DNA of 64,000 nt from Actinomycetota bacterium (GTDB lineage: Bacteria; Actinomycetota; Actinomycetes; Nanopelagicales; Nanopelagicaceae). This document shows, in pieces, positions 57,560 to 64,000 of this stretch (positions are counted from its first letter, which is position 1; every line of letters starts with the position of its first letter). Below the pieces are notes generated by a model that was given only the letters and a program-made list of their open reading frames with translations, did no database searches and was not told the DNA's origin. Location of the stretch: contig JACSDF010000001.1 in assembly GCA_015660815.1 (NCBI GenBank), positions 51,076 to 115,075 of the forward strand, given 5' to 3'. A program made the position numbers and the translations under genes.

Positions 57560-59338
57560 TTAACCACCCAAAAGCTTATCTGCGATGTTATTTCCTAGTG
57601 CAATTTCGACGATAAAAAAGAATATAACTACACCACCGAATCGATAAATAAAGCGCCCAGAGCCTTCTTGTTTCCAATTTATTGGAGCGCTTCGGTCGGC
57701 GAAGAAGTTGGCAAACTGCAGAATTAAACCTGGAATTCCCAATATGACAAAGCCCCATCGCAGGAATTCAGTTGGATCTTGGAAAAAGGACTGCACCCAT
57801 CTTCCAAATAGTGTTCCTACGAAAACCATAATTACAATTTTCAACGCACCTTTTGGTAATGCTTTATGAATCATTCTACTTTTCGGCAATTTTCCAGAGA
57901 CTGTGAGGGCGATAATCTTAGGGAGCAGAAAGAGCAAGGTTCCCAACCACAGTTGAATTGAATTTCCAATAAAAGGTTCCGCTAAGAATGCAAAAACAAA
58001 TGTCTTGAATATCATAGCGATTACTATTTGTACCTTGCTGGGCATGGTTAACTCAGGTTGAAGCGTAGCTAGCCTGACAGGAAAAAAGTAAGTTGCACAA
58101 TCTTCACCAGCGAGCCGAACTGCAACGGCAACAGCTGTTATAACGCCAATTGTGAATGAAAAAGTAGTTATAGGAAGTTGAACTCCCGAAAGTCCTGAAA
58201 GAGAGCCAACCATTTTTGAAATCGACCACCCTGTGAGCACTGCCGCCAAAAGATAGTCAGTCAATCTCTCCCATGCATCGGCAGGAGTTTTAATTTCGCG
58301 TCGAAGCGGGCGAAATGCGCTTGCAATAAGAGCAGGTGCAAAAAATACCGCAACAATCCCGACAACAGTCAGCAACTCATTTCGCGAAGTAATATTTCCG
58401 TTAATTAATACTCCAATAAAGAAAATACCTGCGGCCAAGAATCCCCCAAAGGCATCAAAGACACCAACTACCATTATTGCGGCGAAGAGAAGCCAAGTAG
58501 GAGGAAGAGCCTGTGCGTCAACGCTTTGAACAGCGAGAACTCCTAAAATAACTCCTAGGGGGTGTAAGAGCGCTGCCAATGAACCAAGCATTGCTCGAAG
58601 GTAATTTCCATCATAGAAAACCCTCGACAACATTGGTGAAATTCGCGAAGTTCGATGTGCGCCTGCAATAAAGACTGAATCCAATTTTCCACTCATGGGC
58701 AACATCCATAAGCCGCGGATGTCCCCACGTTTCTCTTTTCTCTCCAGTTTCCTTAAGTGTTCAGATTCAATTGCCTCTAACTCTTGGCGTTCTCGCTTTT
58801 GCTCTTCAGATTCTGTAGATGAATATGAATCATTGTCTAACTCTTCGCGCCTGGCATATGTTCGAAAGCGCGTATCAGAATATGGGTCGAAATTTGAAGT
58901 ACCAAGAGTTCCAAATGCTCCAGTCGCACCTCCAGCGGCTAAAACAGTGAGCGCGGCGAAGGCGGCAACCTGAACTTCTAAATTCTTTTTAGGTTGTGAA
59001 ACTGGATCAAATGCCGGTAAATCTTCGCGATCTTTGACTTTTTCTAAAACACTCTGAGGGGCAAGGGGGGTGATAACACCACAGGAACCCTCCCAATGAA
59101 TAGAACCCTCTAAATCCTTGCAGAAGGTTAAATACTCTATAGATATTTCACCAGTTGTTGGATCCGTTGATTCCACTGCAACCGAATGGTAGCCCGGCTC
59201 TAGGTCTTCTGGAATCTCAACCCCAATTCTCTGGTCACTCGCTGAAATAGTCGTAGTTGAAATATCACTATCTGCTGATGCCGCTAGCAGGGAAAAGTTG
59301 AGTACAACAACAATAAGCAGAATCAGTCGTCTAATCAC
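57560..59338 (-). CDS. multi-spanning membrane protein of unknown function with N-terminal extracytoplasmic domain
   Basis: Signal peptide, ~90-aa beta-rich ectodomain, TM, charged cytoplasmic linker, many C-terminal TM segments; GTGA overlap with the upstream gene. Confidence 0.75.
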   Translation of the reverse strand: MIRRLILLIVVVLNFSLLAASADSDISTTTISASDQRIGVEIPEDLEPGYHSVAVESTDPTTGEISIEYLTFCKDLEGSIHWEGSCGVITPLAPQSVLEKVKDREDLPAFDPVSQPKKNLEVQVAAFAALTVLAAGGATGAFGTLGTSNFDPYSDTRFRTYARREELDNDSYSSTESEEQKRERQELEAIESEHLRKLERKEKRGDIRGLWMLPMSGKLDSVFIAGAHRTSRISPMLSRVFYDGNYLRAMLGSLAALLHPLGVILGVLAVQSVDAQALPPTWLLFAAIMVVGVFDAFGGFLAAGIFFIGVLINGNITSRNELLTVVGIVAVFFAPALIASAFRPLRREIKTPADAWERLTDYLLAAVLTGWSISKMVGSLSGLSGVQLPITTFSFTIGVITAVAVAVRLAGEDCATYFFPVRLATLQPELTMPSKVQIVIAMIFKTFVFAFLAEPFIGNSIQLWLGTLLFLLPKIIALTVSGKLPKSRMIHKALPKGALKIVIMVFVGTLFGRWVQSFFQDPTEFLRWGFVILGIPGLILQFANFFADRSAPINWKQEGSGRFIYRFGGVVIFFFIVEIALGNNIADKLLGG

Positions 59339-60108
59339 TTTGTTGGACCCTTAGAAGTAATCGTGATTTTTATTACCGAACCAATTTTTTGTCCTGAAAC
59401 AATTAGTGTGGCTTTATTGCCATTGCTCTTTTCAACGCGAACAAAACTCTTTGGTAAACCTTCCGTTGTACTAGATGGAGCTGGATCGTCAGAGGTAACA
59501 ACCGTTGAACTACTTTTAGATGCCTCTGGTGAAGCTGTTGGTGAGGAGCTCTCAACCTTTTCTGCTTTCTTTTCGTCTCCTAAACCTTTATCGCTTTTTA
59601 CACTCTCGTTTTTATCGGAGTTTGAATTTGAATTCTTAACTTTAGGGTCCGACTTTGTATCAGATTTTCCATTGACCTTAACATCGGACTTCACATTCTT
59701 CTTTTCATTAGCGGTATTTTCTGGCTTCTTTACTTGTGAATCAGGCTTCGCCTCTTTACTTGGCTTCGCCTCTTTACTTGGCTTCGCTTCATCAGTCGGC
59801 TTCGCCTCTTTACTTGGCTTCGCTTCATCAGTCGGCTTCGCTTCATTACTTGGCTTAGCTTCATTACTTGGCTTAGCTTCATTACTTGGCTTAGCGTCAG
59901 GTGACCTGCTCTCTATCGGCTTGGCTGATGGAACAGGTTTAACCTCCGCAGGCGTCGTATTGGTTGGTTCATCTTTTTTCGGCTTCTCACTACTTGTAGG
60001 AGTGGTTGGTTTATGTGAGGCACCCGAAGCAAAACTTGGTGTTAGTAAGCCAAGGGATAGGCAGATTAGGAGCGCTACGACTCTAAAAGTAAGCCTCTCG
60101 ACCCTCAA
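59335..60108 (-). CDS. secreted low-complexity Pro/Lys/Glu/Ser repeat protein
   Basis: Signal peptide LTFRVVALLICLSLGLLTPSFASGA, tandem PS(N/K)EAK / PTDEAK hexapeptides, folded C-terminus KATLIVSGQKIGSVIKITITSKG. TTG start with AAGGAG SD. Confidence 0.75.
   Translation of the reverse strand: MRVERLTFRVVALLICLSLGLLTPSFASGASHKPTTPTSSEKPKKDEPTNTTPAEVKPVPSAKPIESRSPDAKPSNEAKPSNEAKPSNEAKPTDEAKPSKEAKPTDEAKPSKEAKPSKEAKPDSQVKKPENTANEKKNVKSDVKVNGKSDTKSDPKVKNSNSNSDKNESVKSDKGLGDEKKAEKVESSSPTASPEASKSSSTVVTSDDPAPSSTTEGLPKSFVRVEKSNGNKATLIVSGQKIGSVIKITITSKGPTK
59744..59905. repeat. 18-bp tandem repeat, nine units (last degenerate)
   Basis: Consecutive units read by eye: GGCTTCGCCTCTTTACTT x2, GGCTTCGCTTCATCAGTC, GGCTTCGCCTCTTTACTT, GGCTTCGCTTCATCAGTC, GGCTTCGCTTCATTACTT, GGCTTAGCTTCATTACTT x2, GGCTTAGCGTCAGGTGAC. 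Confidence 0.95.
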
Positions 60109-60220
60109 CTCAGACTCCTTAGATCAAAGCATGCGGAAATCAGCATTGCATGGAAGTCGTACTCTACAAATAATCGCCTGAATAATCATCACATTCTGGG
60201 CAGAAATTTTTTAGAATATT

Positions 60221-60982
60221 TCAGGCCAGATTTTTGAGCTGGGCTAGAATAATTTTAAAGGGCGATTTTCGATAATCAATAAGCTCAAAATGTCCGAGTT
60301 TCTCAATCTCAAACAATGTGCAATCAATGCCGGCTCGGCTATATAAATTGTTAAAGTTCCTGGACATATCTATTGGGACTCGCAGATCGTCACGTCCATG
60401 AATTATGACGATAGGTACACTCGCATTTAAAAGCACATGTGGGTCTAGGTCTGAACGATTGACGGCATAATCGCCTAAGAAATTTTTCACCGCCCCATTA
60501 TCTAAATTTCGTGTCTCGGCATCTGCTAAATCACTAACAGGTGCCAGAGCTATTACTCCTTTAATGAGGGAGGAAGTATCTTCATTAGATGCAAGCAGTG
60601 CTAAGTGCCCACCAGCTGAGTGGCCAATGAGGATGCCACCACCGCAATGGATGATAGCCGCGCGTACATCATCCATGTAATTATCTGGAATGCCCGGAGT
60701 CCTTCGGTACTCAATTAACTGAACTTTCCACCCAGCATCCGAGAGAGCGGCGGCAAGTGGACGAAGATGTGCCAGATCAAATTCTGGTCGCCAATACCCA
60801 CCATGAATGAGAACTATTTGGTCTATGTAATCTCCGCGGGCTTCAAATACTTCAATGAATTGATCCTCAAGAAGTCCATATTTTTCTATAGTGTCGCTTG
60901 CACGGCTAGTTAAATCAAATACCGAACGATCCTCTTTTTTGTTCCGAGATTTATCTGACCTATGTAGAAATTTAAAAGACAT
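60221..60982 (-). CDS. alpha/beta hydrolase (kynurenine formamidase-like, HGGYW motif)
   Basis: LIHGGYWRPEFDLAHLRPLAAALSDAGW, ILIGHSAGGHLALL, HGRDDLRVP, LGHFELID. Confidence 0.85.
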   Translation of the reverse strand: MSFKFLHRSDKSRNKKEDRSVFDLTSRASDTIEKYGLLEDQFIEVFEARGDYIDQIVLIHGGYWRPEFDLAHLRPLAAALSDAGWKVQLIEYRRTPGIPDNYMDDVRAAIIHCGGGILIGHSAGGHLALLASNEDTSSLIKGVIALAPVSDLADAETRNLDNGAVKNFLGDYAVNRSDLDPHVLLNASVPIVIIHGRDDLRVPIDMSRNFNNLYSRAGIDCTLFEIEKLGHFELIDYRKSPFKIILAQLKNLA

Positions 60983-60984
60983 AT

Positions 60985-61992
60985 TTAAGGTTTGAGAATA
61001 ATTCGAATCGGATTATCAATTTTAAGCTCTAACTGTCGTAAGGCAACTTCGGCCTCTTCTAGCGAATAAACACCAGTTATTGATGCAGATAGGTCCAACT
61101 TTCCCGCCTTAATTAGTGACACGAGTTCTTGGGTGTGTTGTGGCTCAGAACCGTAGTGTCCAAGAATTTGATTTCGCTTGTAAACGAAGGCCATATCGCT
61201 TGGAATCGAAATAGGTTCGCCTGCAATCCCTATTACTACCAAACGCCCACCTTCAGCCAATAACGGTAACGCCTGAGTTCGGGCTGCAACCACACCCGCA
61301 AAATCAAACGCAACATTGATTCCTCGACCATTAGTTGCGGTACGGATTTTCTTGGCGAATTCTCCATCACTTGGATCTAAAGCAAGATCGGCACCGACAA
61401 GTAATGCGCGCTCACGTGCAAGTGGAAGAGGATCAACGGCAATTATTGGCGATGAGCCAATTATCTTTAGCAGTTGAATTGCGTGAATCCCAAGTCCGCC
61501 TAGTCCAAAGACCATGCTTGATTCACCGGACTCGACTTTAGCCGTTTGCGAAATTGCAGCCCACGGTGTTGATACTGCATCAGGAATGATGCACGCCTGT
61601 TCAAAACTTAACTCACCATGAATAGCAACTAACGTACTTACATCAGCGATCATGAATTCAGCAAAACCACCATCAAAATCAAAGCCTTGAGTACGAACCC
61701 TGCCCTTCTCATCTCTGATGCCGGCACAAATAATGACACGATCTCCTATTTTCCAATCTGAAACACCTGCACCTAAATATTCAATTACGCCGGCAACTTC
61801 ATGTCCCATGGTTACCTCATCGCCCTCTAAGTAACCTGGCGAAAGCGTGGAATCAATTAAGTGAACATCGGAGAGGCACACCCCAGCAGCTTTTACTTGT
61901 ACGCGAACTTGACCGGGACCTGGATGTGGAATCGGAAAGTCAACAACTTTAAACTCTCTGGTACTTACTTTTATTCGTCCAGCACGCATCAA
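60985..61992 (-). CDS. MDR-family (zinc-type) alcohol dehydrogenase
   Basis: GVCLSDVHLID, GHEVAGVIEYLG, VFGLGGLGIHAIQLLKIIG (Rossmann). Confidence 0.88.
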   Translation of the reverse strand: MMRAGRIKVSTREFKVVDFPIPHPGPGQVRVQVKAAGVCLSDVHLIDSTLSPGYLEGDEVTMGHEVAGVIEYLGAGVSDWKIGDRVIICAGIRDEKGRVRTQGFDFDGGFAEFMIADVSTLVAIHGELSFEQACIIPDAVSTPWAAISQTAKVESGESSMVFGLGGLGIHAIQLLKIIGSSPIIAVDPLPLARERALLVGADLALDPSDGEFAKKIRTATNGRGINVAFDFAGVVAARTQALPLLAEGGRLVVIGIAGEPISIPSDMAFVYKRNQILGHYGSEPQHTQELVSLIKAGKLDLSASITGVYSLEEAEVALRQLELKIDNPIRIILKP

Positions 61993-63026
61993 ATCATCCT
62001 CATCGCTCGATTAATCATAATATTCACTGCATCACCAAAACCAGCGAAGGCCGGATTAGATGTTTGTCCTGCAAAATAGCGCGCCCAGATTTGCTGCAAA
62101 ATCACAGTTAATCTGAAAACCCCAAAGATTTCGTAAAAAGTAAAGTCATCACATTCCCATTCTGATTTTTCAAGGTATCTGGCGATGAACTCTTCACGCG
62201 TTGGCATTCCGGGCAGATGAGTTGGCTGTCGGCGCAGTGCTGCAAAAGCAGGCTCATCATTTCGATCGATCCAGTAAGCCATCGACGAACCTAAATCCAT
62301 CAATGGATCACCAACAGTTGCCAACTCCCAATCGAGGGCGCCAACTAGACGTGGCGTATTTTCTAGATTTAGAACTAAATTATCTAATCTCCAATCGCCA
62401 TGAATAACACATGATGCAACGTCGTCGGGTTGATGTTGGTCCAGCCAGCTCATGAGAGCTTCGGCATCTGCGACATCAGGAGTACGAGCCGCCCTGTATC
62501 TCCTAGACCAGCCCTCCACTTGGCGTCTTACATAACCAGGACCTTTACTGAATTGTGCAAGCGGGGCAGAATCAACATGGTGAAGTGAAACTAAACCATC
62601 TATAACTAAATCTCCGATAAGTGTTATATCTTCAAGAGTTAGAGATAAATCTTTCGGCATATCTCGCCTCAGGATTACTCCTTCAATCTTTTTCATTACA
62701 TAAAAATCGGATCCGATAACTGAAAGATCTTGACAAAGGGCGACAACTTTTGGAACTAGTGGAAAATCAGGAAGCAAGACCTTTTGAATTATGAACTCAC
62801 GTTTCATATCATGGGCCGAAGCCGCCTTAGTTCCTACAGGGGGACGCCTCAGAATAAGTTCTTGATCCTTATATGTCAGAAGATAAGTTAAGTTGGAGGC
62901 ACCTGAACCAAATTGTTGAACACGTGGAATCTCTGCTGGCACGTCAGCATTTTCGCGTAACCATTCATGAACTGCATTAACATCAAAGGAGTCTTCGGTG
63001 CGCACTTCTCCAAGTTCAGAGCTCAT
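61989..63026 (-). CDS. APH-family phosphotransferase, ACAD10/11 kinase-domain-like
   Basis: [28 protein letters not shown], catalytic loop [37 protein letters not shown]. Confidence 0.88.
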
Positions 63027-64000
63027 TTTCTTGAGCTGGGCTGGCTTTTCAGTTCAATTCGCGCAATGTCACGAAGGTGTACTTCATCCGGTCCATCGAC
63101 AATACGAAGCGTACGAATTCCTGCAAACATTGCAGCTAACGGCGTATCTTGGCTAACGCCTGCGGCTCCATGAGTTTGAATCGCATGATCGATGATTCGT
63201 TCAGCCATTCTTGGTACAACAACCTTGATAGCGGCAATTTCTTTTCGCGCCGCTTTTGCTCCGACAGTATCGATTAGCCATGCTGTCTTTAGTACAAGTA
63301 GTCGCGCCTGTTCAATATCGACTCGAGCATTAGCAATCCACTCCAGAATAACGCCTTGCTGATTTAATCCTTTTCCAAAAGCCGTTCTCTCGCCTGAACG
63401 GCTAACCATGAGAGATAAGGCCCTTTCAGCCATTCCGATGGCACGCATGCAGTGGTGTACGCGGCCCGGCCCTAAACGAGCCTGTGCGATTTCAAAGCCA
63501 GAACCCTGCTCACCTATTAAATTAGCAACTGGAACTCTTACATCCTCAAAGAGAATCTCAGCATGACCATGTTGATCCTCATAACCAAAGACCGTTAGAT
63601 TTCTTACGATACTTAATCCGGGTGTATCCATCGGCACTAAGACCATTGATTGACGTCTATAGCTTTCGGCATCTGGATCAGTCAGACCCATAACTATTAA
63701 TATTTGGCAGCGAGGATCCATTGCACCTGTTGTCCACCATTTGCGACCGTTGATCACGAACTCGTCACCAATGCGATTGATTGAGGTAGAAATATTGCTG
63801 GCATCACTTGAAGCAACATCGGGCTCGGTCATCGCAAAACCAGAGCGGATTTCGCCACGCAATAGCGGCTCGAGCCACTGATGTTTTTGTGCTTCGCTAC
63901 CAAAAAGATGTAAGACTTCCATATTTCCAGTATCAGGGGCGGCGCAGTTAAGAGATTCAGGAGCAATGTCCGGAGACCAGCCAGTGATTTCGGCTAGCGC
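63023..64000 (-). CDS. acyl-CoA dehydrogenase, ACAD10/11-like (5' end beyond right edge)
   Basis: [82 protein letters not shown]. The frame stays open through the edge ([34 protein letters not shown]). Confidence 0.92.

Follow-up and report, generated by a model that had tools for sequence, protein, structure and literature searches.

Organization and conservation of the locus

The window considered here, a stretch of 64,000 nucleotides from an actinobacterium of the family Nanopelagicaceae, ends on its right side in four open reading frames (ORFs) on the minus strand. These code for an acyl-CoA dehydrogenase (ACAD), an APH-type kinase, a medium-chain dehydrogenase/reductase (MDR) and an alpha/beta hydrolase, the first three of which belong to a predicted cassette for the use of 4-hydroxy acids. 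The genes were identified by means of Pfam, NCBIfam and PDB searches, in which the ACAD (63023-64000, 325 aa, with its 5' end open at the edge) matched the Pfam family Acyl-CoA_dh_1 (1.5e-36), the kinase (61989-63026, 345 aa) APH (PF01636, 1.3e-46), the MDR (60985-61992, 335 aa) ADH_zinc_N (1.8e-23) and the hydrolase (60221-60982, 253 aa) BD-FAE/Abhydrolase (2.6e-11). The ACAD and kinase genes overlap by 4 bp (63023-63026), as do those for the kinase and the MDR (61989-61992), and 2 nt separate the MDR from the hydrolase. A fresh call of the ORFs agrees exactly with the arrangement of four minus-strand genes, two overlaps and one gap given in an initial annotation of this DNA, and the protein motifs listed there were all found in these ORFs. 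The ACAD, kinase and MDR genes form one apparent transcription unit.

The contig itself stops at position 64000, coinciding with the right edge of the window, and the ACAD is therefore truncated at its 5' end, with about 90 codons absent in comparison with the 417-aa orthologue of the closest relative (genome G037, whose kinase is 91% identical to that in the window). In G037, a divergently transcribed short-chain dehydrogenase/reductase (SDR) precedes the genes for ACAD, kinase and MDR, in that order, on a single contig and without the hydrolase. A 96% identical copy of this SDR is present in the window genome close to the end of contig C22, which terminates within an ACAD gene that overlaps the window ACAD over 338 bp with 95% identity, and the kinase is present in this genome in a single copy. 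The simplest reading of these observations is that one locus, consisting of the divergent SDR followed by ACAD, kinase, MDR and hydrolase, was split by strain variation in the assembly. It had been suggested that a CoA ligase or an LvaB-like gene might lie past the right edge; the gene located there is instead the SDR, and a CoA ligase and beta-oxidation genes were found elsewhere in the genome. The SDR side of the cassette is adjoined by a three-gene polar amino acid ABC transporter (L035 14445-16942 in G000:C22, and also L018 and L019), a neighbour which the window genome shares with close relatives but which is not observed family-wide.

The kinase loci across the family were examined together with their flanking DNA. 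The unit that is conserved family-wide consists of the SDR on one side and, transcribed away from it, ACAD, kinase and MDR: the ACAD adjoins the kinase in all 35 loci, the MDR lies beside the kinase in 29 of the 35, and the SDR was found in 30 of 36. Several of the MDR and SDR absences fall at contig ends and some are genuine, with L166 and L176 lacking the MDR and L175 lacking both genes. The earlier inclusion of the MDR in the operon is thus borne out, as it is the conserved third gene of a unit which the SDR completes. The genes flanking this unit vary between loci, and varying neighbours around a constant unit are the pattern expected of a functional cassette; in the family loci read, the cassette contained no CoA ligase and no further recurring gene. 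In counts that are not phylogenetically independent, the kinase was detected above threshold in 38 of 151 family genomes (8 of 17 genera), four of these matches being weaker (only about 35% identical), and the MDR in 28 of 151 (5 of 17 genera). At all 20 MDR loci returned, the kinase and ACAD adjoin the MDR. In a set of 20 near-complete genomes from the genus, an extra ACAD is present in each of the seven that are kinase-positive and in none of the 13 that are kinase-negative. In the genus g17 (L168, L169, L170, L183, L184, and L185), two genes for proteins of ~1280 and 1155 aa, which by their size are possibly rpoC and rpoB, are always found beside the cassette, downstream of the MDR. A second MDR-like fragment, in G176:C42, was rejected; it is fused to an unrelated peroxidase-like stretch and is probably an assembly chimera.

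Relationships and active-site residues of the ACAD and the kinase

When compared with proteins of solved structure, the window ACAD scored 403 bits against ACAD11 (8v3u), 373 bits against 4hr3 and 140 bits against the best conventional ACAD, so that ACAD11 outscores the latter by over 260 bits. The structure of ACAD11 has shown that Arg626, His634, and Arg637 bind the 4-phosphate and that Asp753 acts as the base; these residues are reported to be unique to ACAD10/11 and LvaC and to be needed for the elimination (PMC12440821). The equivalents of all four are present in the window ACAD, where the segment IVDGPDEVH holds that of the catalytic Asp753, and in all 31 family orthologues. Four conventional ACADs from the family, one of them a paralogue in the window genome, lack all three phosphate-binding residues, and conventional family ACADs have Glu at the position of Asp753. 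For 78 further ACADs from named genomes the Asp was built into the search pattern and provides no independent evidence, the Arg and His residues not having been built in. In a phylogenetic tree constructed, like that for the kinase, without LvaA and LvaC, the window ACAD branched in a group with ACAD11 and 4hr3, a long branch setting this group apart from the conventional ACADs. The branch dividing the two groups has a support of 92% (SH-aLRT), and one very divergent Acinetobacter sequence falls outside. Based upon these scores, residues and the tree, the protein is firmly placed in the ACAD10/11-LvaC type and is predicted to be a 4-phosphoacyl-CoA eliminase.

A very divergent ACAD on the Acinetobacter pittii plasmid pApiHUM1c (L224 4793-5974) also keeps the Arg/His/Arg/Asp set, and its neighbours are a phosphotransferase-family kinase, an enoyl-CoA hydratase, a thiolase and an acyl-CoA synthetase. 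This protein suggests that the phosphate-eliminating residues track the kinase rather than mere close kinship, and it may belong to a second, distantly related lineage of ACADs that eliminate phosphate.

The kinase has PDB matches to 9o56, 3dxp, and ACAD11. The ACAD11 kinase domain uses Asp220, Asn225, Arg86, and Arg176 (PMC12440821), and the equivalents of the catalytic pair (D220/N225) and of the two CoA-contact residues (R86/R176) are kept in 35 of 35 APH-fold kinases of the family, including that in the window, which is 32% identical to the ACAD11 domain. In the kinase tree, the window protein groups with kinases from ACAD-SDR-kinase operons, some of which also contain a histidine phosphatase, and then with 9o56 and sequences from Bacillus and Deinococcus; the ACAD11 kinase domain, 3dxp and the Burkholderia kinases form another subclade. 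The assignment of this protein, a predicted 4-hydroxyacyl-CoA kinase, rests on its fold, residues and linkage. The initial annotation had viewed the locus as a split ACAD10/11 system and had proposed to check this by phylogeny. Its view of the kinase/ACAD pair is supported, the ACAD grouping with ACAD11 and possessing all of the active-site residues; the kinase branches apart from the ACAD11 kinase domain.

The two linked dehydrogenases and the hydrolase

The best match of the MDR by sequence among solved structures is the alcohol dehydrogenase ADH-A of Rhodococcus ruber (about 31% identity), and its predicted structure matched just the expected secondary-alcohol dehydrogenases, the closest folds being those of threonine dehydrogenase and ADH-A (TM about 0.85). 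Five residues (C39, H64, E65, D138, and D187) are invariant in 27 sequences, and the first four are the Cys, His, Glu, and Asp ligands of the catalytic zinc. The MDR thus resembles ADH-A and the threonine/butanediol dehydrogenases in fold and catalytic Zn ligands, but differs from them in its low identity and in its structural-zinc lobe, which in the alignment with ADH-A is shortened and without the four Cys ligands. As it also carries an NAD-type Asp, it is predicted to be a Zn-dependent, NAD(H)-dependent enzyme of the secondary-alcohol type. In all 26 sequences, the SDR has the catalytic Ser-Tyr-Lys residues together with two Arg of the NADPH type; its identity to SDRs from related operons is 28-37%, and its family placement is ambiguous. 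From such motifs we infer the cofactors of both enzymes, and their roles in the cassette are likewise proposed. In Mycobacterium sp. 852013-50091 (L057 5122-8209), a kinase, an SDR and an ACAD are present in one operon, and this SDR belongs to the same subfamily as that of the cassette (340 bits), so that the link to the SDR reaches beyond the family.

Only in the window genome does the alpha/beta hydrolase adjoin the cassette, no homologue being found at this place in any other genome examined. Its homologues, detected in 34 of 151 family genomes, are mostly from kinase-negative genomes; the two closest (62-65%) directly follow an acyl-CoA ligase gene, opposite an acyl-CoA mutase gene, and others adjoin unrelated genes. 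Its best characterized match is a carboxylesterase (86.8 bits), with kynurenine formamidase scoring only 31.6 bits. Due to this distribution the hydrolase, which the initial annotation had counted as part of the system, is left out of it here; it is probably a recruited neighbour, and the best explanation of its position is that it is accidental or strain-specific. In L212 (G176:C42, 11018-17601) and L213 (G153:C46, 1016-7599), a homologue of the hydrolase and two acyl-CoA ligases accompany a split B12-dependent acyl-CoA mutase set, consisting of a 497-aa large subunit, a 132-aa subunit and a GTPase chaperone-like gene, which resembles the 2-hydroxyisobutyryl- or isobutyryl-CoA mutase systems. 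Elsewhere in the window, a Lys/Ala/Glu-rich repeat protein (KPSNEAKPSNEAKP...) is overlain by a long open antisense frame (59335-60108 and 59363-60181), which is probably just a side effect of the repeats.

Proposed pathway, alternatives and related systems

Phosphorylation followed by phosphate elimination has been demonstrated on 4-hydroxy fatty acids for mammalian ACAD10 and ACAD11 (PMC12440821, PMC11342911). We consider it likely that the cassette is self-contained and lets 4-hydroxy, and probably also 4-oxo, carboxylic acids enter beta-oxidation. In such a pathway, a general acyl-CoA ligase coded elsewhere would make the CoA ester, whose 4-hydroxyl group the kinase would phosphorylate at the expense of ATP. 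The ACAD, with FAD and its Arg/His/Arg/Asp pocket, would then eliminate the phosphate to yield a 2-enoyl-CoA, as shown for ACAD10/11. The NADPH-type SDR and the NAD-type MDR would probably interconvert 4-oxoacyl-CoA and 4-hydroxyacyl-CoA, with the SDR perhaps in the role of LvaD. Breakdown could be completed by enzymes coded elsewhere in the window genome, where genes for a FadB-like fusion protein, a FadA-like thiolase (above the curated cut-off) and a FadD-like ligase were detected; a literature search on beta-oxidation by related actinobacteria from fresh water was unproductive.

Several observations weigh against this interpretation. The MDR and SDR are each absent from some loci, and hence neither is essential to the core. 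The cassette includes no CoA ligase, transporter or hydratase, and the beta-oxidation genes are equally present in cassette-free genomes; because their presence does not track the cassette, the FadB-, FadA-, and FadD-like genes indicate availability only. The joining of the window to the SDR contig is based upon the 338-bp overlap and the gene order in G037. Lastly, the kinase lies outside the ACAD11/Burkholderia subclade and, as it is also only distantly similar to the ACAD11 domain, it could act on a different substrate.

This last point leads to the suggestion that the same phosphorylate-eliminate chemistry acts not in a general route for 4-hydroxy fatty acids but on a specialized, ring-derived or branched, hydroxyacyl-CoA. 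Besides the separate position of the kinase, this is favoured by the occurrence of an MDR relative with a kinase and ACAD in a Rhodococcus cluster that contains a monooxygenase, a CoA ligase and a CoA transferase and looks like one for the breakdown of a specific compound. However, the CoA-contact and catalytic residues of the kinase are unchanged and the family cassette has no substrate-specific oxygenase or ring-cleaving gene, and we regard this as distinctly unlikely. A narrower form of our preferred interpretation is a dedicated pathway for levulinate (4-oxovalerate), in which the SDR, kinase and ACAD would correspond to LvaD, LvaA, and LvaC and the MDR would be an extra. The frequent presence of the SDR at the loci agrees with this, as does the core gene content, which is that of a levulinate-induced cluster of Pseudomonas citronellolis that likewise has no lvaB (PMC6692424). 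This form is possible but doubtful, since no levulinyl-CoA synthetase is linked to the cassette in the family loci read (ligases being present elsewhere in the window genome) and the SDR shows only limited identity to those of related operons. Further, no gene of the DUF6285 family, which we take to be that of LvaB, was detected in 61 genomes of the genus, and our literature search found no mention of DUF6285.

It was also proposed initially that the four window genes constitute a lactone or ester pathway, with the hydrolase opening gamma-lactones for the kinase. 4-Hydroxy acids are often presented as lactones, and the hydrolase is on the same strand and nearly contiguous with the MDR, but none of the other genomes examined has it in the cassette, and its homologues are located mostly in kinase-negative genomes and beside unrelated or ligase/mutase genes, which makes this very improbable. 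That an ordinary ACAD and an antibiotic-type phosphotransferase are chance neighbours could be argued from the merely generic annotations and from the weak NCBIfam matches that the kinase has to phosphotransferases for capreomycin and macrolides; in view of the ACAD11-specific residues, the replacement of the conventional Glu by Asp and the strict linkage of kinase and ACAD, it is scarcely credible.

The MDR and SDR might constitute a stereo-inversion pair, in which the MDR would oxidize the wrong 4-hydroxy enantiomer to the 4-oxoacyl-CoA and the SDR would re-reduce this product to the enantiomer accepted by the kinase. Such a step would be useful because the ACAD10 kinase prefers the R form (PMC11342911), and the four-gene cassette could then use racemic 4-hydroxy acids. 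A step of this kind was not found described in the ACAD10/11 papers, and we put it forward only as a speculation that is unlikely to be right. It was not until 2024-2025 that the chemistry of ACAD10/11 was assigned, and work on the equivalent bacterial systems has centred on Pseudomonas and Burkholderia. Conserved in actinobacterial genomes of a mere 1-2 Mb, this minimal cassette reveals which genes stay together with the kinase and ACAD, suggests that its hosts feed on 4-hydroxy or 4-oxo acids, and offers in the SDR and MDR two candidate partners for the handling of both enantiomers and the keto form. Even if only the core holds, the cassette would clearly add a further case of chemistry already described.

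In relation to known systems, the cassette resembles mammalian ACAD11 and ACAD10 (8v3u, 8v3v, 2wbi) in the active-site residues of its ACAD (R626, H634, R637, D753) and kinase (R86, R176, D220, N225), but it consists of two separate proteins with a linked SDR and MDR, has no HAD domain, and its kinase is from another subclade. A kinase/ACAD pair from Burkholderia can substitute for the ACAD10 domains (PMC11342911); the Burkholderia and A. baumannii plasmids in our comparisons were read by profile search. With the lva operon of P. putida (LvaABCDE), compared by gene content and not by sequence, the cassette shares separate kinase and ACAD genes plus an SDR, whereas it has no CoA ligase or histidine phosphatase, no lvaB-like gene was found in it, its SDR is divergently transcribed and an MDR is added. 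The P. citronellolis cluster, similar in having no lvaB, is matched in gene content by related operons with ACAD, SDR and kinase (39-55% identical), read on plasmids of Streptomyces, Azospirillum, Ideonella, Pseudoalteromonas, and Deinococcus. The kinases of the closest clade (45-55% identical) are found in operons such as those of Streptomyces sp. NBC_01136, Azospirillum thermophilum, and Ideonella dechloratans, where the ACADs are 53-57% identical to the full-length orthologue. Unlike the cassette, most of the ACAD-SDR-kinase operons include a histidine phosphatase, a second SDR is present in some, and the MDR was seen in none of them; an Azoarcus operon has an additional CoA ligase and thiolase. 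The Rhodococcus erythropolis plasmid pRhX5 has, within about 10 kb, genes for a kinase, an ACAD and a relative of the MDR (51% identity), together with CoA ligase and CoA transferase genes, but this catabolic cluster is far larger and its kinase belongs to another subclade. By analogy, the kinase/ACAD pair probably works like ACAD10/11 and LvaA/LvaC; the cassette is not classed as an lva operon, because no linked CoA ligase was found on testing. The chemistry itself is known, and the new part is its combination with a conserved MDR and a divergent SDR in small actinobacterial genomes.

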